Source: Thermosipho melanesiensis BI429
GTDB lineage: Bacteria > Thermotogota > Thermotogae > Thermotogales > Fervidobacteriaceae
Assembly: GCF_000016905.1 (NCBI RefSeq)
Contig: NC_009616.1
Coordinates: 744,001-808,000 of the forward strand
DNA: 64,000 nucleotides
Reading direction: 5' to 3'
Part shown: positions 3,648 to 31,318 of the stretch, one piece after another
How the letters are laid out: each line of letters opens with the position of its first letter
How positions within the stretch are numbered: the stretch's first letter is position 1
The notes under the pieces: generated by a model
The model's input: the letters and a program-made list of their open reading frames with translations, nothing else
Told to the model about the DNA's origin: nothing
The model's database searches: none
Made by a program: the position numbers and the translations under genes

Positions 3648-4911
3648 AAAAGCAAAAGAATTTATGCCAGGCGGTGTAAATAGCCCTGTAAGAGCCTTTA
3701 AATCTGTTGAACTTGACCCCATATTCGTAAAAAGCGCAAAAGGTAGTAAAATCAAAGACATAAATAACAACGAATATATAGATTATATCCAATCTTGGGG
3801 AGCACTTATATTAGGCCATTCACACGAGGTAGTTATTAATGCAATAAATGAACAATCACAAAAAGGAACAAGTTACGGGCTATGTCATCCTTTGGAAGTG
3901 GAAATGGCACAGATACTTGTGGAAAACATTCCTTCAATTGAAATGGTAAGAATGGTCAATTCTGGAACTGAAGCAGTTATGAGTGCAATCAGACTTGCAC
4001 GGGCATACACAAAAAGAGATTTTATTGTAAAGTTTGAAGGTTGTTATCATGGTCATTCAGATTCTTTACTTGTAAAAGCGGGCTCTGGTGCACTTACATT
4101 TGGTACACCAAATTCAGAAGGTGTAACGAAAGAATTTGTATCTAAAACAATAGTTGCAAAATATAATGATGTACAAAACATAAATGAAATATTTGAAAAT
4201 TTTGGAGATAAAATTGCATGTGTAATAGTAGAGCCCATTGCTGGAAATATGGGGGTTGTTCCTCCAAAACCAAATTTTTTGTTAACACTCCGTAAGCTTA
4301 CCAAAAAGTATAATAGTATTTTAATATTCGACGAGGTAATTACAGGTTTTAGGGTATCACAAAATGGCGCTCAAGGTCTATTTAATGTAATACCAGATCT
4401 CACTACATTAGGAAAAGTCATTGGAGGAGGACTTCCCGTCGGGGCATTTGGTGGAAAAAAAGAAATTATGCAATTAATTTCTCCACAAGGCCCTGTGTAT
4501 CAAGCGGGAACTTTATCTGGGAATCCACTTACCCTTGCAGCAGGAGTATCCACTTTAAAATTTATCTTGAATAACAAAAACTTTTACAAAAAATTAGATG
4601 AGCTTGCTAAAACACTTGAAGAAGGATTATTGTACGCACTAAAGGATTTCAATATAAAAGTAAATAGGGTAGGAAGTATGATATCATTTTTCTTTAACGG
4701 TTCTTCCGTTGACACGTACGAAAAAGTTATATCTTCAGACGTTAATATGTACAAAAAATTATTTAAGTATTTCCTATCATACGGGATACTTTTGCCCCCT
4801 TCTCCTTTTGAAAGTCTCTTTATCTCTTATGCTCATACAAATGAAGATATCCAACAAACTATAGATATCGCAATGAAATTTTCCAAAAACTTAAAGGAGG
4901 GAAAAGTATGA
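3640..4911 (+). CDS. hemL: Glutamate-1-semialdehyde 2,1-aminomutase
   Basis: PLP enzyme that makes 5-aminolevulinate from glutamate-1-semialdehyde, the last step of the C5 route. Visible hallmarks are [10 protein letters not shown] at the N terminus, [29 protein letters not shown], the [10 protein letters not shown] Asp that contacts PLP, and the Schiff-base Lys in [18 protein letters not shown]. Length is 423 residues, normal for the family. ATG 3640 sits six bases after GGAGGG and overlaps the previous stop by eight bases. Its presence shows that tetrapyrroles are made from glutamyl-tRNA. Confidence 0.96.
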
Positions 4912-22812: not shown

Positions 22813-25134
22813 TCACCTCTTAAGTATTTTTTTTACCAACTTTAGTGCTTGTGATGCGTTTTTGGCATAATATACACCAAAATTATCCGCAATTTCTTTG
22901 TTCATAGATGCTCCTCCAGAAATTATAGGAATATCTACATTATTATCGACAAATAAATCCTTTACCTCTTTTATTCTTCCAATAGTTGTTGTCATCATGG
23001 CAGATAAACCGACTATATCAGGTTTATATTCCTTAACCGCCTTTAAAATTTCTTTTGCAGGAACGTCCTTTCCAAGATCTATAACGTTTATACCAGAACT
23101 TTTTAAAACCGTTCCAACTATCCTTTTACCTATATCATGCACATCCCCCTCTACCGTTGCAAGTACAACTGTTCCCAACTTTTCCCTAGCGTTACTTTCA
23201 ATTAATGAATTTAGGTATTCAAATATAGGAGTTACTGTTTCTGCGGCGAGAATAAGTTGTGGGAGATATATTTCCCCTTTTGAATACAGTTCTCCAATGT
23301 ACTCCATCTTCTTCGAAAGAATATCCTGACTTATTTGAAGAGGAGTATATTCTTCAAGTAATTTCTCTATCTCTCTTTTTAATTCATCTTCTTTTTTGTT
23401 TAGTATCATTTCAATCATGGGCTCGTTACGTATTATCTCTTTTTTTTCAAAATCCACTCCTTTTAAAGTAAGGCTACCAAATACAGCATTCATGGTACAC
23501 TTTTCAGATGTATTCAAAATAGCCGCAGTTAATCCCTTATCAATACAAAGAGCCAAAAATGAACTATTAAGAGCTTCTCTATTTGGCATACCAAAACTTA
23601 AATTAGAAAGTCCTATACTTGTATTTATACCCTCTTTTGAAAGAAGTTCGATTGTTTTTATTGTAACAGCTGGATCTTTCTTGGCCCCCAATGGCAAAAC
23701 CAACGGATCAACAATTACACGCTCTTTTTCTATATCATGTTTTTCTAGATACCTTATAGCTTCAAGTGCTATATCAAATCGCTCCTTTGCACTTTCAGGT
23801 ATCTTATCCTTCATGGTTAAGAGAATCAAAATTCCACCGTATCTTTTTAAAAGATAAATTGCTTTATCTAAATTTTCCCTTTTTGCAGTTGAAGAGTTTA
23901 TTATAGGTCTTCCTACATATTCTTTCAATGCCATTTCCATAAACTCAAATTCTTGTATATCCAACGAAAGAGGTAAAGAACTTATCTTATCTAATGTATT
24001 AACAACTTGACTAAAATGTGTTTTATCAAGTAATTTTTCTATTCCAAGGTTTAGATCCAATACATGGGCACCTTCTTTTTCTTGTAAAATTGCAAGTTCT
24101 ACTATCTTGTTGTAATTTCTTTCTCTTATTTTTTGTTGAAACTTTTTCTTTCCTGCAGCATTAATTCTTTCGCCGATTATAAGGAATGGCTTCATTTTTT
24201 TTAACTTGGTTCTACTTGAAACAAATTCCTCTTTTACTATCTCTCTTTTCTTAGGCTTTTTTTCTTTCAAAAATTCAACCATCAACCTTATATGCTCAGG
24301 TGATGTCCCACAACATCCTCCTACTATATTTGCACCAAATTCAACAAAGTCTTCCATATACAATGCAAATTTTTCAGGAGATGTGTTATATACTATGCTA
24401 CCATCTCTCAATAGCTTTGGTTTTCCCGCATTTGGCTCTACACTTATAGGCTTTCTTGAATAATTTGAGAGTTGCTTAAAAACGGGTAATAATTTTTCCG
24501 GCTCAAGTGTACAATTTATTCCTACAACATCCACATCTAAATCATTCATCAATGTAGAAAAAATTTCCACACTTGTCCCCGTAACAGCTACTCCATCTTC
24601 ATCAAACGTCATTTGAACAATTATTGGTACATCCTTTGACAAATCTCTCAAGGCCAAAATAGCCGCTTTTAACTCTTTTAAATCAGACATAGTTTCCAAA
24701 ATAAACCCATCAATCCCAGAATTTAAAAGTATCTCCCCTTGCTCTTTAAACACCTCGTATGCTTCATCAAAAGTTAATTCTCCAAGTGGTGAAATAAGGT
24801 ATCCCGTTGACGATATATCACCAAGTATATAAACTTTTTTATCCTTTCTGGCCTTCTTCGCTATCTTTACCGCATTGTAATTAATATCCTTTAAATTATA
24901 TTTCACCTTTAATGAACTTAGTTTCAACCTGTTTGCACTAAAAGTGTTTGTTAAAAGAAAATCTACCCCTGCATCAACATAAGCCTTTTGAAGGGCATAA
25001 ACCATTTCACTATTTGTAACATTTAAAGTTTCAATTACTTCCTTAAAACCCAATTTAAAAAATTCCGTACCATATGCTCCATCCAAAAAATATATTCTTT
25101 CATTTAACAGTTCTAAAAATTCTTTTCTTTCCAA
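22813..25134 (-). CDS. metH: B12-dependent methionine synthase lacking the activation domain
   Basis: Transfers the methyl group of 5-methyltetrahydrofolate to homocysteine through cobalamin. The order is homocysteine domain (LDGAYGTEFFKLGF; zinc ligands in INCTLEP and GGCCGTSPEH), pterin-binding domain from about 320 (IGERINAAGKKKF), helical cap, and cobalamin domain with the ligand motif GDVHDIGKRIV. It ends at about 773 residues, without the SAM-binding reactivation domain, which is the separate gene just upstream. TTG 25134, two bases after that gene's stop and behind GGATGGTGG, is the preferred start. ATG 25146 is possible. Confidence 0.95.
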   Translation of the reverse strand: MERKEFLELLNERIYFLDGAYGTEFFKLGFKEVIETLNVTNSEMVYALQKAYVDAGVDFLLTNTFSANRLKLSSLKVKYNLKDINYNAVKIAKKARKDKKVYILGDISSTGYLISPLGELTFDEAYEVFKEQGEILLNSGIDGFILETMSDLKELKAAILALRDLSKDVPIIVQMTFDEDGVAVTGTSVEIFSTLMNDLDVDVVGINCTLEPEKLLPVFKQLSNYSRKPISVEPNAGKPKLLRDGSIVYNTSPEKFALYMEDFVEFGANIVGGCCGTSPEHIRLMVEFLKEKKPKKREIVKEEFVSSRTKLKKMKPFLIIGERINAAGKKKFQQKIRERNYNKIVELAILQEKEGAHVLDLNLGIEKLLDKTHFSQVVNTLDKISSLPLSLDIQEFEFMEMALKEYVGRPIINSSTAKRENLDKAIYLLKRYGGILILLTMKDKIPESAKERFDIALEAIRYLEKHDIEKERVIVDPLVLPLGAKKDPAVTIKTIELLSKEGINTSIGLSNLSFGMPNREALNSSFLALCIDKGLTAAILNTSEKCTMNAVFGSLTLKGVDFEKKEIIRNEPMIEMILNKKEDELKREIEKLLEEYTPLQISQDILSKKMEYIGELYSKGEIYLPQLILAAETVTPIFEYLNSLIESNAREKLGTVVLATVEGDVHDIGKRIVGTVLKSSGINVIDLGKDVPAKEILKAVKEYKPDIVGLSAMMTTTIGRIKEVKDLFVDNNVDIPIISGGASMNKEIADNFGVYYAKNASQALKLVKKILKR

Positions 25135-25136
25135 AA

Positions 25137-25673
25137 TTACCACCATCCTACCATACATGTTGTTGTCTTTCTTGGAATCATAACACCGCTTTGCAAAACC
25201 TTAATCTCTTTTATTTTCAAGAAGTTTATAATATCTTTATTTTTCCTAATATCCACATCACCATAGCCAGGAGAAAAACGCATAGTTCCTTTTCCCATTT
25301 TTTCCCTAAGTTTTTTATCAAAAGAATCATTGAGTTTTTCCAAAGCCTCAGATGCCCAGGCATCTAATATTGCACCTTTAAAAATTTCGCCATTTTCCAT
25401 GTATTCCTCTATTTTTTCATCTATATCTTTACCAAGAGTGGAAACAAAAATAGTGATTTTTTTTATTCCTTTAAAACTTTTAGGAACGAAATTTGGAATG
25501 TCTTTAATTGTATCAAACCATACAATGGGTTTAGAAAGCCTCAAACCTTCCAAATAAATCTCGTTAATTTCTTCGTTTAGATCATTTTCCATACCTTTGT
25601 ATCTCATACCAGCTCTTGCAAGAAAAATCTTCTTTGATGGCATATACTCGTGCTTTTCAGGAATATAGACCAT
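25137..25673 (-). CDS. Stand-alone MetH activation-domain protein
   Basis: 178 residues resembling the AdoMet-binding reactivation domain of MetH, which re-methylates oxidised cobalamin. Telling segments are GAILDAWASEALEKL, FSPGYGDVDI, and the C-terminal LQSGVMIPRKTTTCMVGW. T. maritima TM0269, solved structurally and described as a MetH activation-domain relative, is the closest known type. It lies between metF and metH, with two bases before the latter, so equal production is likely. Confidence 0.9.
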   Translation of the reverse strand: MVYIPEKHEYMPSKKIFLARAGMRYKGMENDLNEEINEIYLEGLRLSKPIVWFDTIKDIPNFVPKSFKGIKKITIFVSTLGKDIDEKIEEYMENGEIFKGAILDAWASEALEKLNDSFDKKLREKMGKGTMRFSPGYGDVDIRKNKDIINFLKIKEIKVLQSGVMIPRKTTTCMVGWW

Positions 25674-25681
25674 ACTCTCAC

Positions 25682-26599
25682 CTATATATTCTTTAATATT
25701 TCTAATACTGGATCTGGCTTACTCATAGTAAATATATGAATTCCAGGTATACCATACTCACGAAGTTTTTCTATCATCTTTATGGTATGCCTTATTCCTA
25801 CAAAAAATTCTTCTTTTTCTGTTTTTGCCTCTCTCAAATCCTCAAGTAATTTTTCTGGAATGTCTATAAAAAACGTCCCGGGAAGTTTTTTTGCGCTTTT
25901 ATAGCTTGTTATTGGCTTAATACCAGGAATAATAGGAATTGTTATATTCTCCTTTTTCAATCTTTCAACAAAATCAATGTACTTTTTTTCATCAAAGAAC
26001 ATTTGAGTTATTACAAACTTTGCACCGGCTTCTATCTTTCTTTTAAGATATTTTATATCTTCCGTCATATTAGGAGACTCAAAATGCTTTTCTGGATATC
26101 CTGCAACACCTATACAGAAATCCGTTTTTTTTGCATTTTGGTATAGGTACTTTCCCTTGTTCATATTAAAAATCTGCTCAACAAGCTGATATGCATACTC
26201 ATACTGCCCATCTTTTTTTATTACATTCCTTTTTTTATCACCTCTTACAACAAAAACATTATCTATGCCTATAAAATCAAGGTCAATAAGGAGTTCTTCA
26301 AGTTCAAACTTGCTATTCCCAATACAAGTAAGATGTGGAACAACATCTATATCGTACCGCATCTTTAATGCTGCAACTATTCCCATTGTTCCAGGTCTTC
26401 TCACTTTTGGAAGTTTCAAAATCCGCCCATCTACCTCATAATACTCCAGTTCAGCAGGATGTTTTGTAACACTTATAAACGCTGGATTAAAAGGTGCTAT
26501 TTTGTCAACCACCTTATAAATCTCATCTATACTGTGACCTCTAAGTGGTGGAATCACCTCAACTGATACAAAAAAATCCTTTATTTTAGATATCTTCAT
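25682..26599 (-). CDS. metF: 5,10-methylenetetrahydrofolate reductase
   Basis: Makes the 5-methyltetrahydrofolate used by MetH. A TIM-barrel flavoprotein of 305 residues with VSVEVIPPLRGHS at the start, FISVTKHPAE, NVFVVRGDK, and FVITQMFFDEKKYIDFVERLK near 205. The final GIPGIHIFTMSKPDPVLEIL is characteristic. It follows UPF0280 with one base between the genes. ATG 26599 has a modest GATGG site, consistent with coupling. Confidence 0.94.
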   Translation of the reverse strand: MKISKIKDFFVSVEVIPPLRGHSIDEIYKVVDKIAPFNPAFISVTKHPAELEYYEVDGRILKLPKVRRPGTMGIVAALKMRYDIDVVPHLTCIGNSKFELEELLIDLDFIGIDNVFVVRGDKKRNVIKKDGQYEYAYQLVEQIFNMNKGKYLYQNAKKTDFCIGVAGYPEKHFESPNMTEDIKYLKRKIEAGAKFVITQMFFDEKKYIDFVERLKKENITIPIIPGIKPITSYKSAKKLPGTFFIDIPEKLLEDLREAKTEKEEFFVGIRHTIKMIEKLREYGIPGIHIFTMSKPDPVLEILKNI

Positions 26600-26600
26600 C

Positions 26601-27299
26601 TTACCATCCCCTCACTCTGTGTATACCCTTTATAACAACATATCCATCTATAATTACAACTATATCTTGTATTTCTTGAAACTCTTTTTTTAAAATTCTT
26701 TTTGCATCGTATACGTTTTTTATATTGTTTGATATAGCAGTTGCGTAGGCGTCTGAAAGAGTTGCATCGTGTGTAACAACAGTAGTCGTATCTGTTTTTC
26801 CAAAATTTTTTGAATGACCTATATATCTCGATGAAGTGGCAATACCATATTCTCCAGCAGGAAGTTCTATTTTCAAATTTATCGTATTTGAAACTATTCC
26901 AACACTTGTATCAGTTGTAGAAAAAACATATAAATCTCCGCCATTTTCCACAAAAAGTTTTTGTGGAGAAAATGTGTTTAATATAAACCGTCCAACAAAC
27001 TTCGAAAACGCACCAGCAACAGCTGCCATAGGACCAACACCTGCTTTTTGTGAACAAAGTATCATATCTTTAACTATTTCCGGCTCATCACACTTGATTT
27101 TTAATGGCTTTAGCACACCTAAAAACTCTTCATCTACATACTCTTCTATACTCTTTCTTAAATCCACAAGATACTCATAAATCAAAATTGGCAAACCAGG
27201 TATCTTTTTATCCATCCCTATCCAAATATCGCTTTCTTTATATTTTACCCTAAACGAAAATAAATTATGTCCCATTAACTCTCTATAATACCTATTCAA
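26601..27299 (-). CDS. UPF0280 (COG2122) protein, probable sulfide-to-homocysteine factor
   Basis: About 232 residues of an ApbE-like fold, with GVGPMAAVAGAFSKFVGR, FVENGGDLYVFS and THDATLSDAYATAISN as family motifs. In Methanosarcina, the COG2122 protein MA1715 improves sulfide assimilation into homocysteine together with COG1900 proteins, and here it sits directly after a COG1900 gene. TTG 27299 overlaps the previous stop as TTGA and has GGGGG eight bases upstream. The longer frame to 27338 lacks such a site. Confidence 0.87.
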   Translation of the reverse strand: MNRYYRELMGHNLFSFRVKYKESDIWIGMDKKIPGLPILIYEYLVDLRKSIEEYVDEEFLGVLKPLKIKCDEPEIVKDMILCSQKAGVGPMAAVAGAFSKFVGRFILNTFSPQKLFVENGGDLYVFSTTDTSVGIVSNTINLKIELPAGEYGIATSSRYIGHSKNFGKTDTTTVVTHDATLSDAYATAISNNIKNVYDAKRILKKEFQEIQDIVVIIDGYVVIKGIHRVRGW

Positions 27300-28600
27300 T
27301 TTAGCAACCCCCAAGGAAGTTCTATCCCGATAGGACACACATCACTGCACAAACCACAATCCACACACTTTTCACTGTAAAACCTTACTATATCATCTTC
27401 AAGTACTAGTGCATCACAATATCCCGTACAAAGTCCACAATTAACACACGTTTTTTTTACATTGTTTGTATTCGTAGATTTTTTCTTTATCTTTAAGGAC
27501 TTGTAATCTGACTCTTTTGGAAGAAATGATACGGGTTTTGTTATGTAAAATTTCTTTTCTAATATCTTTTCCTTCAGTTTTTTTGCAATCTTTCTTGAAA
27601 CACTTAAACTCGTTAGTGGTGCTGTCCTCACAACTTTTTCGTTTATTTCTATTCTACCACTTCTCAACTCTTTAAAACTTACTTCTTTTATAGTAGGTTT
27701 TCCAGGTTTCCCATAGTCTTTCAACGTAGTAATTAATTCTTCGTTTGATCTGGTTACAAAATATGCTATTTCTTCAGAAAGTATTGGAATGGGAATTCCA
27801 ATACCAACAAACATCGTTATTCCATAATTTTTAAACTTTGCCGCTCTAATATATTCCAAACTCATTTCCTTTGCATTTCCAATAACAGCTAAAGTTCTAG
27901 AAGGACCTTTGGGAATTATTTCTTTAGATGGATTGTACTGTGTTCCCTGCCAAATAATATATCCTTCTGTTCCTCCAAAAAATATCCTAGTTCCAATGCC
28001 TACAGTTTCTAAATTCGGATCATTTAATAGCGGACTTAGTTCTCCTGATGTTGCATAAGTTACATTTCCATAATTTGGGAGCAATTTCCCCATGTATGTA
28101 TACAAAGTTCTATTTGAACTATTTGTCGCTGCAGAATAATTTTGATATACATTACGTGGATTGAAAAAATAAAACTCATTTATTAATTCCTTATTTACAT
28201 ACCCACTTATCTCCTTTCTCGGATAACAATCTGTCCCCTTTCCTTTTGCTTGTAAAAGTACATCTTTACCGGAAATCAGCTTTTCAATAACATATGCCCC
28301 GCCACTTTTTCTACTTTCTTGAGTTACACCCAAATATCCATCGACTGCCGCAAGCCCACCGTGTGCAGATACTCCATCTAACTTTATCTGCTCCATCCTC
28401 ATAGGAGGGGTTGTATGTCCAAAGTTAAAAAACACGCCAGAAGAACACATAGGAGAAAAAGTCCCGGTAGTTACCACATCAACATTTTCATACACATACT
28501 TTACCCCTTTTTCTTTTGAAAGCTTCACAACTTCTTCAGCAGTTAATACTACTACCTTACCCTTCGAAATTTTTTCATTAATCTCCTCATACGTTCTCAT
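27296..28600 (-). CDS. DUF39 (COG1900) homocysteine biosynthesis protein fused to a 2[4Fe-4S] ferredoxin domain
   Basis: 434 residues. Residues 1 to about 370 are DUF39, with conserved cysteines in FSPMCSSGVFFNFGH and GKGTDCYPRKE and the GTEGYIIWQGTQ motif. Residues from about 383 carry two clusters, CVNCGLCTGYC and CVDCGLCSDVCP. In methanogens, the COG1900 protein and a separate NIL/ferredoxin protein convert aspartate semialdehyde and sulfide to homocysteine. Here the ferredoxin is built in. It overlaps lysC by four bases, placing it second in the met operon. Confidence 0.9.
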   Translation of the reverse strand: MRTYEEINEKISKGKVVVLTAEEVVKLSKEKGVKYVYENVDVVTTGTFSPMCSSGVFFNFGHTTPPMRMEQIKLDGVSAHGGLAAVDGYLGVTQESRKSGGAYVIEKLISGKDVLLQAKGKGTDCYPRKEISGYVNKELINEFYFFNPRNVYQNYSAATNSSNRTLYTYMGKLLPNYGNVTYATSGELSPLLNDPNLETVGIGTRIFFGGTEGYIIWQGTQYNPSKEIIPKGPSRTLAVIGNAKEMSLEYIRAAKFKNYGITMFVGIGIPIPILSEEIAYFVTRSNEELITTLKDYGKPGKPTIKEVSFKELRSGRIEINEKVVRTAPLTSLSVSRKIAKKLKEKILEKKFYITKPVSFLPKESDYKSLKIKKKSTNTNNVKKTCVNCGLCTGYCDALVLEDDIVRFYSEKCVDCGLCSDVCPIGIELPWGLLN

Positions 28601-29739
28601 ACAATCTCCTCCTTTGTATACAATATATTATGAATTATATGGATAATTTGTTTTAATCTTTCTCTTTTAACTAGCAAAATCAAAAAATTATTACCATCTT
28701 TCAACACAAAAAAATTGTGATTGTGGAAGTAAAGAGCGTTTAATATTAATAGTTTTTTTCCTATATCAATATCTCCACCTATTACCAGCAAGGAAAGATC
28801 TTCAACTACAGAAAATTCGGAAAAATAAGACTTTATTTCCTCAATTTTTTCCCTCTCTACCACAACATTTGCTTTATTTTGAAAAACATCCAAATACTTT
28901 ACGTTTCTTGGAATCTTCTCAATAGTTCCACTTATTAACACCTCATTTTCCAAAAAACTCATAGAAAAAACTCCAAAATCAAGTTCTTTTGAAATAAGAG
29001 TATACTTTCCACCTTTTATTCCAGTAATTCTTACAGGTATATTTTTCAACTTGGCAGGAAGAATAGCTTGGGAATGTATTATCTTTGCTCCAAAATAAGA
29101 TAGAATTTCTGCTATTTCATATGAAATCTTTGTTATTGGAACAGAATTTTTTACCATTTTGGGATCACAAGAAAAAAGTGAACTTACATCTTTATAAAGT
29201 ATTACTTCCTTTACATCTAGCATGTATGCTAATGCCGTTGCGGTATAATCACTGCCACCTCTACCCAATGTTTTTACCTCTCCATTATACATTGCATAAA
29301 ACCCCGGAACTATGTAAATTTTTTCTTCATTAAAAGAATCTTTTAAACTAACACTAAGATCAATCTGTTCTTCCATATTTAAAGTTAATCCTATGTTCTC
29401 AGGAAGCCTTTCTTCTGCGTTAAAACCTTTTCTTTCAAGAAAAATTTTTAACGCCAAAGAGGTACATCTTTCACCATGAGAAATGATTTTCTCAATATTT
29501 TCTTCTCCTCTGATTTCATAAACTCTTTTTCTTAATTCATCTGAATCCCCCCCCAAAAACCCACTAATTTTTTCATACATATTTCCCAAAAATACATCGT
29601 TAATATCATTTTTCAAAAGTTCATCTGTTAACCCAAATGGAGCTGATACAACTATTACGAGTTTTTTCTCATCTAAAAGTTTAGGTACAAAAGAAAAAGT
29701 GTTTTTTAGAATAGAACCGCCAAGTTTAAGTATCTTCAA
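28597..29739 (-). CDS. lysC: Aspartate kinase
   Basis: Phosphorylates aspartate, the first step toward methionine, lysine and threonine. The kinase core shows KILKLGGSIL, ISHGERCTSLAL, TLGRGGSDYTATALAYML and LYKDVSSLFSCDP. A shortened C-terminal regulatory region follows (about residues 270-380), with an ACT-like character but weak conservation. TTG 29739 lies six bases after AGGAGGTG. A GTG at 29748 is inside that site and unlikely. The gene heads the methionine operon behind a Met attenuator, so it is probably the methionine-dedicated isoform. Confidence 0.9.
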   Translation of the reverse strand: MKILKLGGSILKNTFSFVPKLLDEKKLVIVVSAPFGLTDELLKNDINDVFLGNMYEKISGFLGGDSDELRKRVYEIRGEENIEKIISHGERCTSLALKIFLERKGFNAEERLPENIGLTLNMEEQIDLSVSLKDSFNEEKIYIVPGFYAMYNGEVKTLGRGGSDYTATALAYMLDVKEVILYKDVSSLFSCDPKMVKNSVPITKISYEIAEILSYFGAKIIHSQAILPAKLKNIPVRITGIKGGKYTLISKELDFGVFSMSFLENEVLISGTIEKIPRNVKYLDVFQNKANVVVEREKIEEIKSYFSEFSVVEDLSLLVIGGDIDIGKKLLILNALYFHNHNFFVLKDGNNFLILLVKRERLKQIIHIIHNILYTKEEIV

Positions 29740-29766
29740 TGCTTTCACCTCCTTAAAATAAAAAAA

Positions 29767-29791
29767 CGGCCAGTGTTGTACACACTGGCCG
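29767..29791 (-). terminator. Attenuator terminator (segments 3:4) of the met operon
   Basis: A perfect ten-base-pair stem CGGCCAGTGT/ACACTGGCCG with a five-base loop, followed on the minus strand by TTTTTTATTTT. It lies about 28 bases before the lysC start. Confidence 0.92.
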
Positions 29792-29861
29792 CTTGTTTGT
29801 CTAGCTAATAATTACTAAATTTCCATAACAAAAGGCTGCGGCCAGTGTAGCCACATGCCGC
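29782..29861 (-). promoter_or_regulatory. Met attenuator: alternative RNA pairings 1:2 and 2:3
   Basis: Segment 1 (29857-29861) pairs with segment 2 (29838-29842) over GCGGC/GCCGC, extended by an inner GTG/CAC. Segment 2 (29838-29848) can instead pair perfectly over 11 bases with segment 3 (29782-29792), which is the upstream arm of the terminator. The Met codons lie just before and within segment 1. A ribosome waiting for Met-tRNA would hide segment 1 and favour the 2:3 antiterminator. Confidence 0.88.
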
Positions 29862-29928
29862 GCATTATCATCATGTTAACTATATTGATATGATCAATAT
29901 TTACACCTTCAACTTTTTTCCTTTCCAT
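29815..29928 (-). CDS. Met-rich leader peptide (37 residues)
   Basis: ATG 29928 follows GAGGGAGAG. The frame ends at TAG 29817-29815. Its middle reads NIVNMMIMRGMWLHWP, with Met codons at 29874-29869, 29865-29863 and 29856-29854, ahead of an attenuator and an operon for methionine synthesis. Six of the 37 residues are Met, counting the start. The peptide overlaps all of segments 1 and 2, as a stalling leader should. Confidence 0.87.
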   Translation of the reverse strand: MERKKVEGVNIDHINIVNMMIMRGMWLHWPQPFVMEI

Positions 29929-29956
29929 AACTCTCCCTCACAGTAAGTTTTTTTAT

Positions 29957-29984
29957 ATTTTAACAAAAATAAAAAAATTGTCAA
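29957..29984 (-). promoter_or_regulatory. Promoter of the met leader-lysC operon
   Basis: Consensus TTGACA (29984-29979), 16 bases, TAAAAT (29962-29957) on the minus strand, about 29 bases ahead of the leader peptide start. It lies back to back with the promoter of the decayed MATE gene. Confidence 0.75.
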
Positions 29985-30021: not shown

Positions 30022-30054
30022 TAAACAAAAAAGTGCAAAGAAGGAGTTCCAAGA

Positions 30055-31318
30055 ATAGCAATTAAAAAACTATCTTTGCCTATGATTTTAACGATGTTAG
30101 TACAAACAATTTAGTAGATGGAATATGGGTTGCAGGATTAGGTTCAAATGCATTAGCAGCAATAGGTTTATTTTTTCCCATATTCATGATAATCATCGCT
30201 TTATCTTCAGGACTTGGAGTGGGGACAAGTTCAGAAATTTCCAGAAAAATTGGAGAAAAAACAAAAAAGGAGCAGATACAGCTGCTATTATTTCTGTATT
30301 ATTATTGTATTAGACATTTTATCTGTAATTATATTTCTAATCACAATTAAACCCATATTACTCTCTACTGGTACAAGTAGCGAAACATTAAAATTAGCTT
30401 TAGACTATGCATATATATTGTTAATTTTTTCTCCTTTTTTAATGTTTAACAAAGTAGCCAACGAAATATTAAATGCAAAAAAAGCTATGCTTGCAATTGC
30501 AATAGGTTCCTTTCTAAACATGGTATTAGATCCAATATTTATATATAATACATTTAAATTAGGTATTAAAGGTGCGGCAATTGCAACTGTTGTTTCTTTT
30601 AGTATATCTACCCTGTTTATAGTTTACTGGATGTTTATAAAAAGAAACACATACCTAAAAATAACATTTAAAGATTTTAAATATGATTCAAAAATTTAAA
30701 AAATATTTTAAAAGTTGGTATTTTATCTTCTTTGTCACAAGCTGTTATGTCCGTTGCTATATTTATCTTAAACATTTTTGCGGTAAAAGCGGGAGGAGAT
30801 TTGGGAATTGCGATATTTACAAGTTCGTGGAGGATAATAAACTTTGTTACAATTACATTAAGCGGTAACCACCGTAACAGGTGCAGCATATGGACAAAGA
30901 AATGGTAAAAAATTATCTCAAGCACATTTATATTCAATAAACTTTGGCTCGACCATTAGTATATTTGTTTTACTTGGAATATTCATATTTACACCTCAAA
31001 TAGCAAAGATATTTTCATACTCTAAAGATGGCTCTTTAATATATAACGATATAATAGTTGCATTAAAAATTATGAGTTTATTTTTACCTGGTGTACCATT
31101 TGGAATGTTCACATCGTCTATGTTTCAAGGTATAGGACATGTGCTCAAAAGTCTAACAGTAACAATAATGCGAACAATAATAATGCAACTTTTGTTTTCC
31201 TGGATATATATTTCCCTATTTAACTTTGGACTTTTAAGGGTTTGCTGGAAAATTAATGATTACTTTCCTTTGAGGAAGAATAACCATTAAAAAATTAAGA
31301 ATAGTTGAAGGAATATAA
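30055..31318 (+). pseudogene. Decayed MATE-family efflux transporter
   Basis: Pieces in all three frames align end to end as one MATE exporter: [78 protein letters not shown], then VGILSSLSQAVMSVAIFIL, VTGAAYGQRNG, MFQGIGHVLKSL and finally RITIKKLRIVEGI. The likely start codon reads ATA (30055) instead of ATG. About seven bases seem missing near 30110, single bases near 30296 and 30695, a gap near 30868, and another shift near 31250. So many independent lesions, not all in homopolymers, argue for true decay rather than error. Confidence 0.85.

Follow-up and report, generated by a model that had tools for sequence, protein, structure and literature searches.

A candidate Met-codon attenuator ahead of methionine operons in Thermotogota

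The leader and the operon behind it in Thermosipho melanesiensis

The window, i.e., the whole stretch of 64,000 nucleotides that was analysed (NC_009616.1, positions 744,001 to 808,000), belongs to the 1,915,238-bp genome of Thermosipho melanesiensis and carries on its minus strand a Met-rich leader followed by six genes that begin with lysC (Table 1). Because lysC is followed by genes for a HcyBio/DUF39 protein, a COG2122-like protein, MTHFR, a probable MetH activation protein and MetH itself, the array is a methionine operon; the third product, assigned to the PRK04334 type, is the one that we take to be COG2122/UPF0280. In Desulfovibrio vulgaris, homocysteine synthesis needs both a DUF39 and a COG2122 protein (PMC5764234). 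On the other side of the leader, a divergent gene for a MATE-type transporter (30040-30700, plus strand) looks broken, with a stop codon upstream, near its beginning, and an open part that only encodes a MatE fragment of 161 amino acids (30214-30699; PF01554).

Table 1. Features of the Met leader and of the methionine operon in the window (all on the minus strand)
Feature	Position	Strand	Description and support
Promoter	29957..29984	-	TTGACA-16-TAAAAT, with TG before the -10 box (extended -10); 11/12 consensus matches
Leader ORF	29815..29928	-	37 codons, Shine-Dalgarno-like GAGGGAG ahead of ATG; ORF kept in relatives
Met run	29863..29874	-	ATG ATG ATA ATG (MMIM), proposed stall site; invariant in four genomes, residues ahead diverge
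1:2 hairpin	29838..29861	-	GCGGC...GCCGC, sequesters segment 2; predicted to fold before segment 3 is made
Segment 2	29838..29848	-	ACACTGGCCGC; complements segment 3 over 11 bp
Segment 3	29782..29792	-	GCGGCCAGTGT; shared by the antiterminator (as its 3' half) and the terminator (as its 5' half); homologous helix covaries in genera g2 and g3
Intrinsic terminator	29760..29791	-	Perfect 10-bp stem CGGCCAGTGT/ACACTGGCCG (29791-29767) and T tract (29766-29760); kept in relatives
lysC, aspartate kinase	28597..29739	-	Start most likely the TTG at 29739, after AAGGAGG; AA_kinase PF00696, aspartate kinase models
HcyBio/DUF39 homocysteine synthesis protein	27296..28600	-	Ferredoxin-like tail; PF01837, E 7.7e-134
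PRK04334-type protein	26601..27338	-	NCBIfam NF003323, E 2.8e-49, under cut-off
Methylenetetrahydrofolate reductase (MTHFR, metF)	25682..26599	-	PF02219
Probable MetH activation protein	25137..25673	-	Weak PF02965 match under cut-off, and gene context
Cobalamin-dependent methionine synthase (MetH)	22813..25158	-	PF02574, PF00809, PF02310, PF02607

An earlier note on this DNA had described, ahead of lysC, a consensus promoter, a frame of 37 codons with clustered Met codons, a 1:2 hairpin, a perfect 2:3 antiterminator of 11 bp and a terminator with an equally perfect stem of 10 bp and a U tract, all of which are present. The leader peptide reads MERKKVEGVNIDHINIVNMMIMRGMWLHWPQPFVMEI and its frame continues through segment 2, which pairs with segment 3 without mismatch. 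Altogether, the region shows the features of trpL-type leaders: a short ORF with a ribosome-binding site between the promoter and the first gene, 1:2, 2:3 and 3:4 stems that exclude one another, with an intrinsic terminator at the end, and, next to segment 1, a cluster of codons for the product of the operon, methionine (MMIM before GCGGC). When the leader was shuffled 2000 times with its dinucleotide composition preserved, no shuffle yielded even the combination of a terminator and a segment 2, although the thresholds had been loosened.

The same note had placed the Met codons exactly where a stalled ribosome would free segment 2, and this holds for part of the cluster. Stalls were modelled by hiding the 12 nt beyond the Met codon in the A site, each Met codon of the run being tried in turn. 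With the ribosome at the third Met codon (ATG 29865-29863), the 1:2 hairpin would weaken from -23.5 to -7.0 kcal/mol while all 11 bases of segment 2 would stay available for the 2:3 helix (11/11), i.e., the 5' arm of 1:2 would be hidden and segment 2 left wholly free, which is the geometry of trpL-type attenuators. A stall at the later Met codon, that of the GM pair, would hide 7 of the 11 bases of segment 2. More generally, modelled stalls at the first Met codons of a run spare more of 1:2 and those at the last hide part of segment 2; masking at only the last Met codon before segment 2 gave mixed results, which were resolved once every codon of the run was tried.

Distribution and covariation of Met leaders in Thermotogota

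A DNA search of 61 genomes located the element ahead of lysC in two further genomes of the genus (G001 and G002) and in one of a sister genus (G007). Across the window genome and these three near relatives, ATGATGATAATG is invariant and the peptide preceding it has diverged. The leader frame, its Met codons, the 2:3 complementarity and the terminator are all kept, as the earlier note had asked of related genomes. In eight genomes of two other genera of the family of T. melanesiensis (g2 and g3, probably Fervidobacterium-like), lysC is preceded by a leader whose Met run reads MMAMMM or MMPMMM and whose stems are quite different. In genus g6 of family f2 (G020, G022, G024 and G036), the operon begins with the MetH-activation gene, and the leaders ahead of it have MIM followed by Cys or Arg.

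A scanner that looked on both strands of 89 loci for a terminator, a segment 2 and a short ORF with clustered Met codons added further Met leaders before lysC or HcyBio in families f4 (G045), f5 (G046, G065 and G058), f8 (G055) and f9 (G100), and before metY in another genome of f8 (G049). Relaxed scans and inspection of the regions upstream of metY then contributed G047 (f6, HcyBio), G066 (f5, metF) and G059 (f8, metY). The further families thus have MIM or MMM versions ahead of lysC, HcyBio, the MetH-activation gene, metF or metY, and in some leaders the run holds two Met codons only. In total, Met leaders were recognized in 26 genomes from seven families (f1, f2, f4, f5, f6, f8 and f9), so that the predicted element goes well beyond the near relatives of T. 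melanesiensis. No leader was detected ahead of the operon in G009, genus g10, G030, G023 and G051, the last two being covered by the scanner alone.

Several loci deserve a separate mention. In G005, the terminator of the Met leader and lysC are separated by an insertion that carries an IS110-like transposase (L123 1690-2907, minus strand), and the operon is cut off from its leader. The metF genes of G052 and G067 are preceded by a terminator leader (L164 ~200-310; L170 ~3900-4090) with one or two Met codons (TILMCRK and ELIMCLMCRK); these are perhaps degenerate Met leaders, and, being weak candidates, they were left out of the count of 26 genomes. In G010, a terminator leader ahead of an asd-like gene (L016 ~1300-1520) could be a lysine riboswitch. 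Finally, in the leaders seen, an Ile codon between two Met codons is always ATA and never ATT or ATC (window 29866-29868; L115, L117, L118, L131, L138 and L169), which may reflect codon bias or the trace of a mutated ATG.

The earlier note had also proposed that covarying stems with conserved Met codons would support the element, and such covariation is clearest for the 2:3 helix of g2 and g3. A MAFFT alignment of the whole cores put the 1:2 arm of G011 and G015 in the wrong place, so the segments were extracted and aligned without gaps before pairs were counted. In this gap-free alignment, which has six distinct rows and whose segments were picked by eye, a choice that favours the structure, 97% of the 2:3 cells are paired and four pairs have changed on both sides. 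Such a covariation score was reached in none of 500 shuffles, and sliding the segments by 1-3 columns destroys the signal. Moreover, three of the four covarying 2:3 pairs fall outside the terminator stem, and therefore the constraint on the terminator does not explain them. The 1:2 and 3:4 stems have one exchange each (U-A to C-G and A-U to G-C, respectively). Altogether, this is good but not overwhelming comparative support for the proposed structure.

Among the scanned sites, the Met clusters are also specific to methionine operons. Among the scanned loci and the window, 125 terminator-like sites have a short ORF upstream; a Met cluster occurs at 17 of these, and all 17 are starts of met operons, a comparison that is between sites within loci and not genome-wide, because the loci were chosen for holding met genes. 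As a background, 38 of 7354 short ORFs (0.5%) in ~1.1 Mb of strand sequence have at least three Met in six codons. Matches to the pattern MMxMMM outside met operons were rejected, since they lie inside ordinary proteins or in chance frames, and a protein search of the genome contigs returned a distant Staphylococcus kinase as its sole match.

Proposed mechanism and alternative explanations

On the anatomy of the leader, its conservation, its covariation and the position of its Met codons, we consider it highly probable that the element is a ribosome-mediated transcription attenuator reading the scarcity of charged tRNA-Met, and from them we infer leader translation, stalling, termination and the response to methionine. 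Briefly, the short ORF would be translated behind the RNA polymerase. When Met-tRNA is scarce, the ribosome would pause in ATG ATG ATA ATG and cover the 5' arm of 1:2, leaving segment 2 free to pair with segment 3, which would block the terminator and allow the transcription of lysC-HcyBio-COG2122-metF-metH. When Met-tRNA is plentiful, the ribosome would reach the stop codon and 1:2 would sequester segment 2 (in some leaders, a ribosome at the stop codon would do so in part), upon which 3:4 would form and transcription would end before lysC. The same device, with different stems, appears to serve met genes across Thermotogota.

Stalls modelled in other leaders are consistent with this attenuator. 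Before segment 3 is made, most leaders are predicted to form a hairpin that lies on the Met run or just downstream of it and ties up part of segment 2. At one of the run codons, a modelled stall removes most of this hairpin and leaves the 2:3 helix complete; it weakens the hairpin from -18.8 to -7.4 kcal/mol in G017 (2:3 helix 10/10) and from -19.1 to -2.4 kcal/mol in G011 (11/11), and the effect is less clear in the leaders of genus g6, where the strongest fold lies further downstream. The stop codon is located 17-32 nt before segment 3 in correctly framed leaders, and 45 nt before it in the weak candidate of G067. Other points speak against the attenuator. Once segment 3 is out, folding of the naked RNA prefers 2:3 to 1:2 in most leaders and thus does not by itself account for termination in times of plenty, which would have to come from the order of folding and from the moving ribosome. 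Since Met also starts the leader, severe starvation should cut leader translation and favour termination. Finally, the run of some leaders is down to two Met codons, and the operon stands without a leader in several genomes.

Because whatever stalls a ribosome on the Met run should trigger an arrangement of three segments, a constitutive attenuator, or one sensitive to translation in general, might be envisaged, in which ribosomes that slow down for any reason cause read-through and nothing depends on the Met codons as such; that several genomes keep the operon without the leader could be taken in the same sense. Yet, of all scanned terminator sites, only those of met operons have Met clusters, and the Met codons are kept while the other codons of the leader drift. 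We regard this explanation as the least probable of those considered here, its probability being very close to nil.

A second possibility is a switch by nascent-peptide arrest, in which the leader peptide itself would stall the ribosome on free methionine or SAM. TnaC responds to tryptophan in this manner. Arg or Cys invariably follows the Met run, in some cases after a Trp, as might be expected from an arrest motif; this sign was set aside, because in g2 and g3 the choice between the Arg and the Cys codon reflects a covarying base of the stem (C-G vs. U-A). Moreover, in three close pairs of leaders, 24 nonsynonymous against five synonymous codon changes, with no indels, have accumulated ahead of a Met run that is itself fixed, and between clades the residues ahead of the run are without similarity, conserved exit-tunnel residues such as those of TnaC being absent. 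Since these residues drift freely, it is the codons that matter rather than an arrest peptide. In addition, a stall under plenty of ligand would turn a biosynthetic operon on, which is the wrong sign. In our opinion, peptide arrest is thus quite unlikely.

Finally, the leader might be a ligand-binding riboswitch, with an aptamer of a new type for SAM or methionine, and its ORF might be accidental. Sensing of SAM by RNA is available in the phylum, since another family of Thermotogota has its met genes under SAM-I riboswitches. Against this, Rfam scans for known leaders gave nothing convincing for the element, with no match to the T-box covariance model and none to that of SAM-I (RF00162) in the window or in the order. 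Furthermore, the stems differ between clades, so that only the Met codons and the logic of the segments persist, without a conserved aptamer core, and the ~100 nt that follow from the Met run are mostly taken up by the 1:2, 2:3 and 3:4 stems. A riboswitch therefore strikes us as very improbable.

Comparison with known systems

Within the phylum, SAM-I riboswitches were found only in family f9, of which three genomes are instructive. In G100 (L134 4516-4782, minus strand), a SAM-I riboswitch (RF00162, 86 bits) with its own terminator is directly followed by a Met leader and then by lysC, a tandem that may provide two-input control. In G093 (L135 8682-9010, plus strand), the SAM-I riboswitch precedes another terminator leader, which resembles the one of G100 but has no Met run beside segment 2 and is possibly a decaying Met leader. 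G102 has the SAM-I riboswitch alone. On balance, we lean towards a scenario in which Met-codon attenuation would be an old and general means by which Thermotogota control their methionine synthesis. It would have been reassembled time and again from new stems and transferred among the lysC, HcyBio, metF, MetH-activation and metY operons; in one family, SAM-I riboswitches would have taken its place, and the tandem of G100 would respond to two inputs, SAM and Met-tRNA. Such attenuation would work even though Met also starts the leader.

Accounts of methionine sensing usually name riboswitches, which detect it as SAM, T-boxes or repressors. SAM-I riboswitches (S-box) share with the Thermotogota leader the premature termination of transcription before methionine genes but sense SAM through an aptamer. 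A methionine T-box would likewise sense uncharged tRNA-Met and antiterminate, but by binding the tRNA directly, without translation. In Xanthomonas campestris, methionine represses the met operon through its 5'UTR, possibly in part by attenuation, but this control is described as mainly translational, and neither a leader peptide nor a terminator turned up in a search of the text (PMC6230763). Closer in appearance is the metL leader proposed before metNIQ in Streptomyces lividans, also a small frame that contains some Met codons and precedes methionine genes; it differs in being leaderless, in preceding a transporter and in its unrelated sequence, while a typical terminator was not found and an antiterminator was not shown (PMC8079986). 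In the literature searched, with most subscription journals outside its scope, we found no described Met-codon attenuator with a terminator and an antiterminator, in agreement with the earlier note, which knew of no Met-peptide attenuator in Thermotogae.

The nearest relatives in design are the trpL-type attenuators (trp, his, leu, thr, ilv and phe), which share the leader ORF and its run of regulatory codons beside segment 1, the competing 1:2, 2:3 and 3:4 stems and the terminator before biosynthetic genes. Unlike in these, the regulatory codon of the Thermotogota leader is Met, which is also the start codon, and the ORF runs through segment 2. The attenuators listed in a survey respond to His, Leu, Thr, Trp, Ile/Val and Phe only, without Met (PMC3766115), a gap that the comparative case made here for a complete, phylum-wide Met-codon attenuator fills. 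Judged from sequence comparison, methionine would thus be a new specificity for ribosome-mediated attenuation by a leader peptide. It raises the puzzle of a ribosome-based sensor for an amino acid that also starts translation, while the combination of drifting stems and fixed Met codons amounts to a natural experiment on what such switches require, and the tandem of a SAM riboswitch and a Met leader bears on two-input control.
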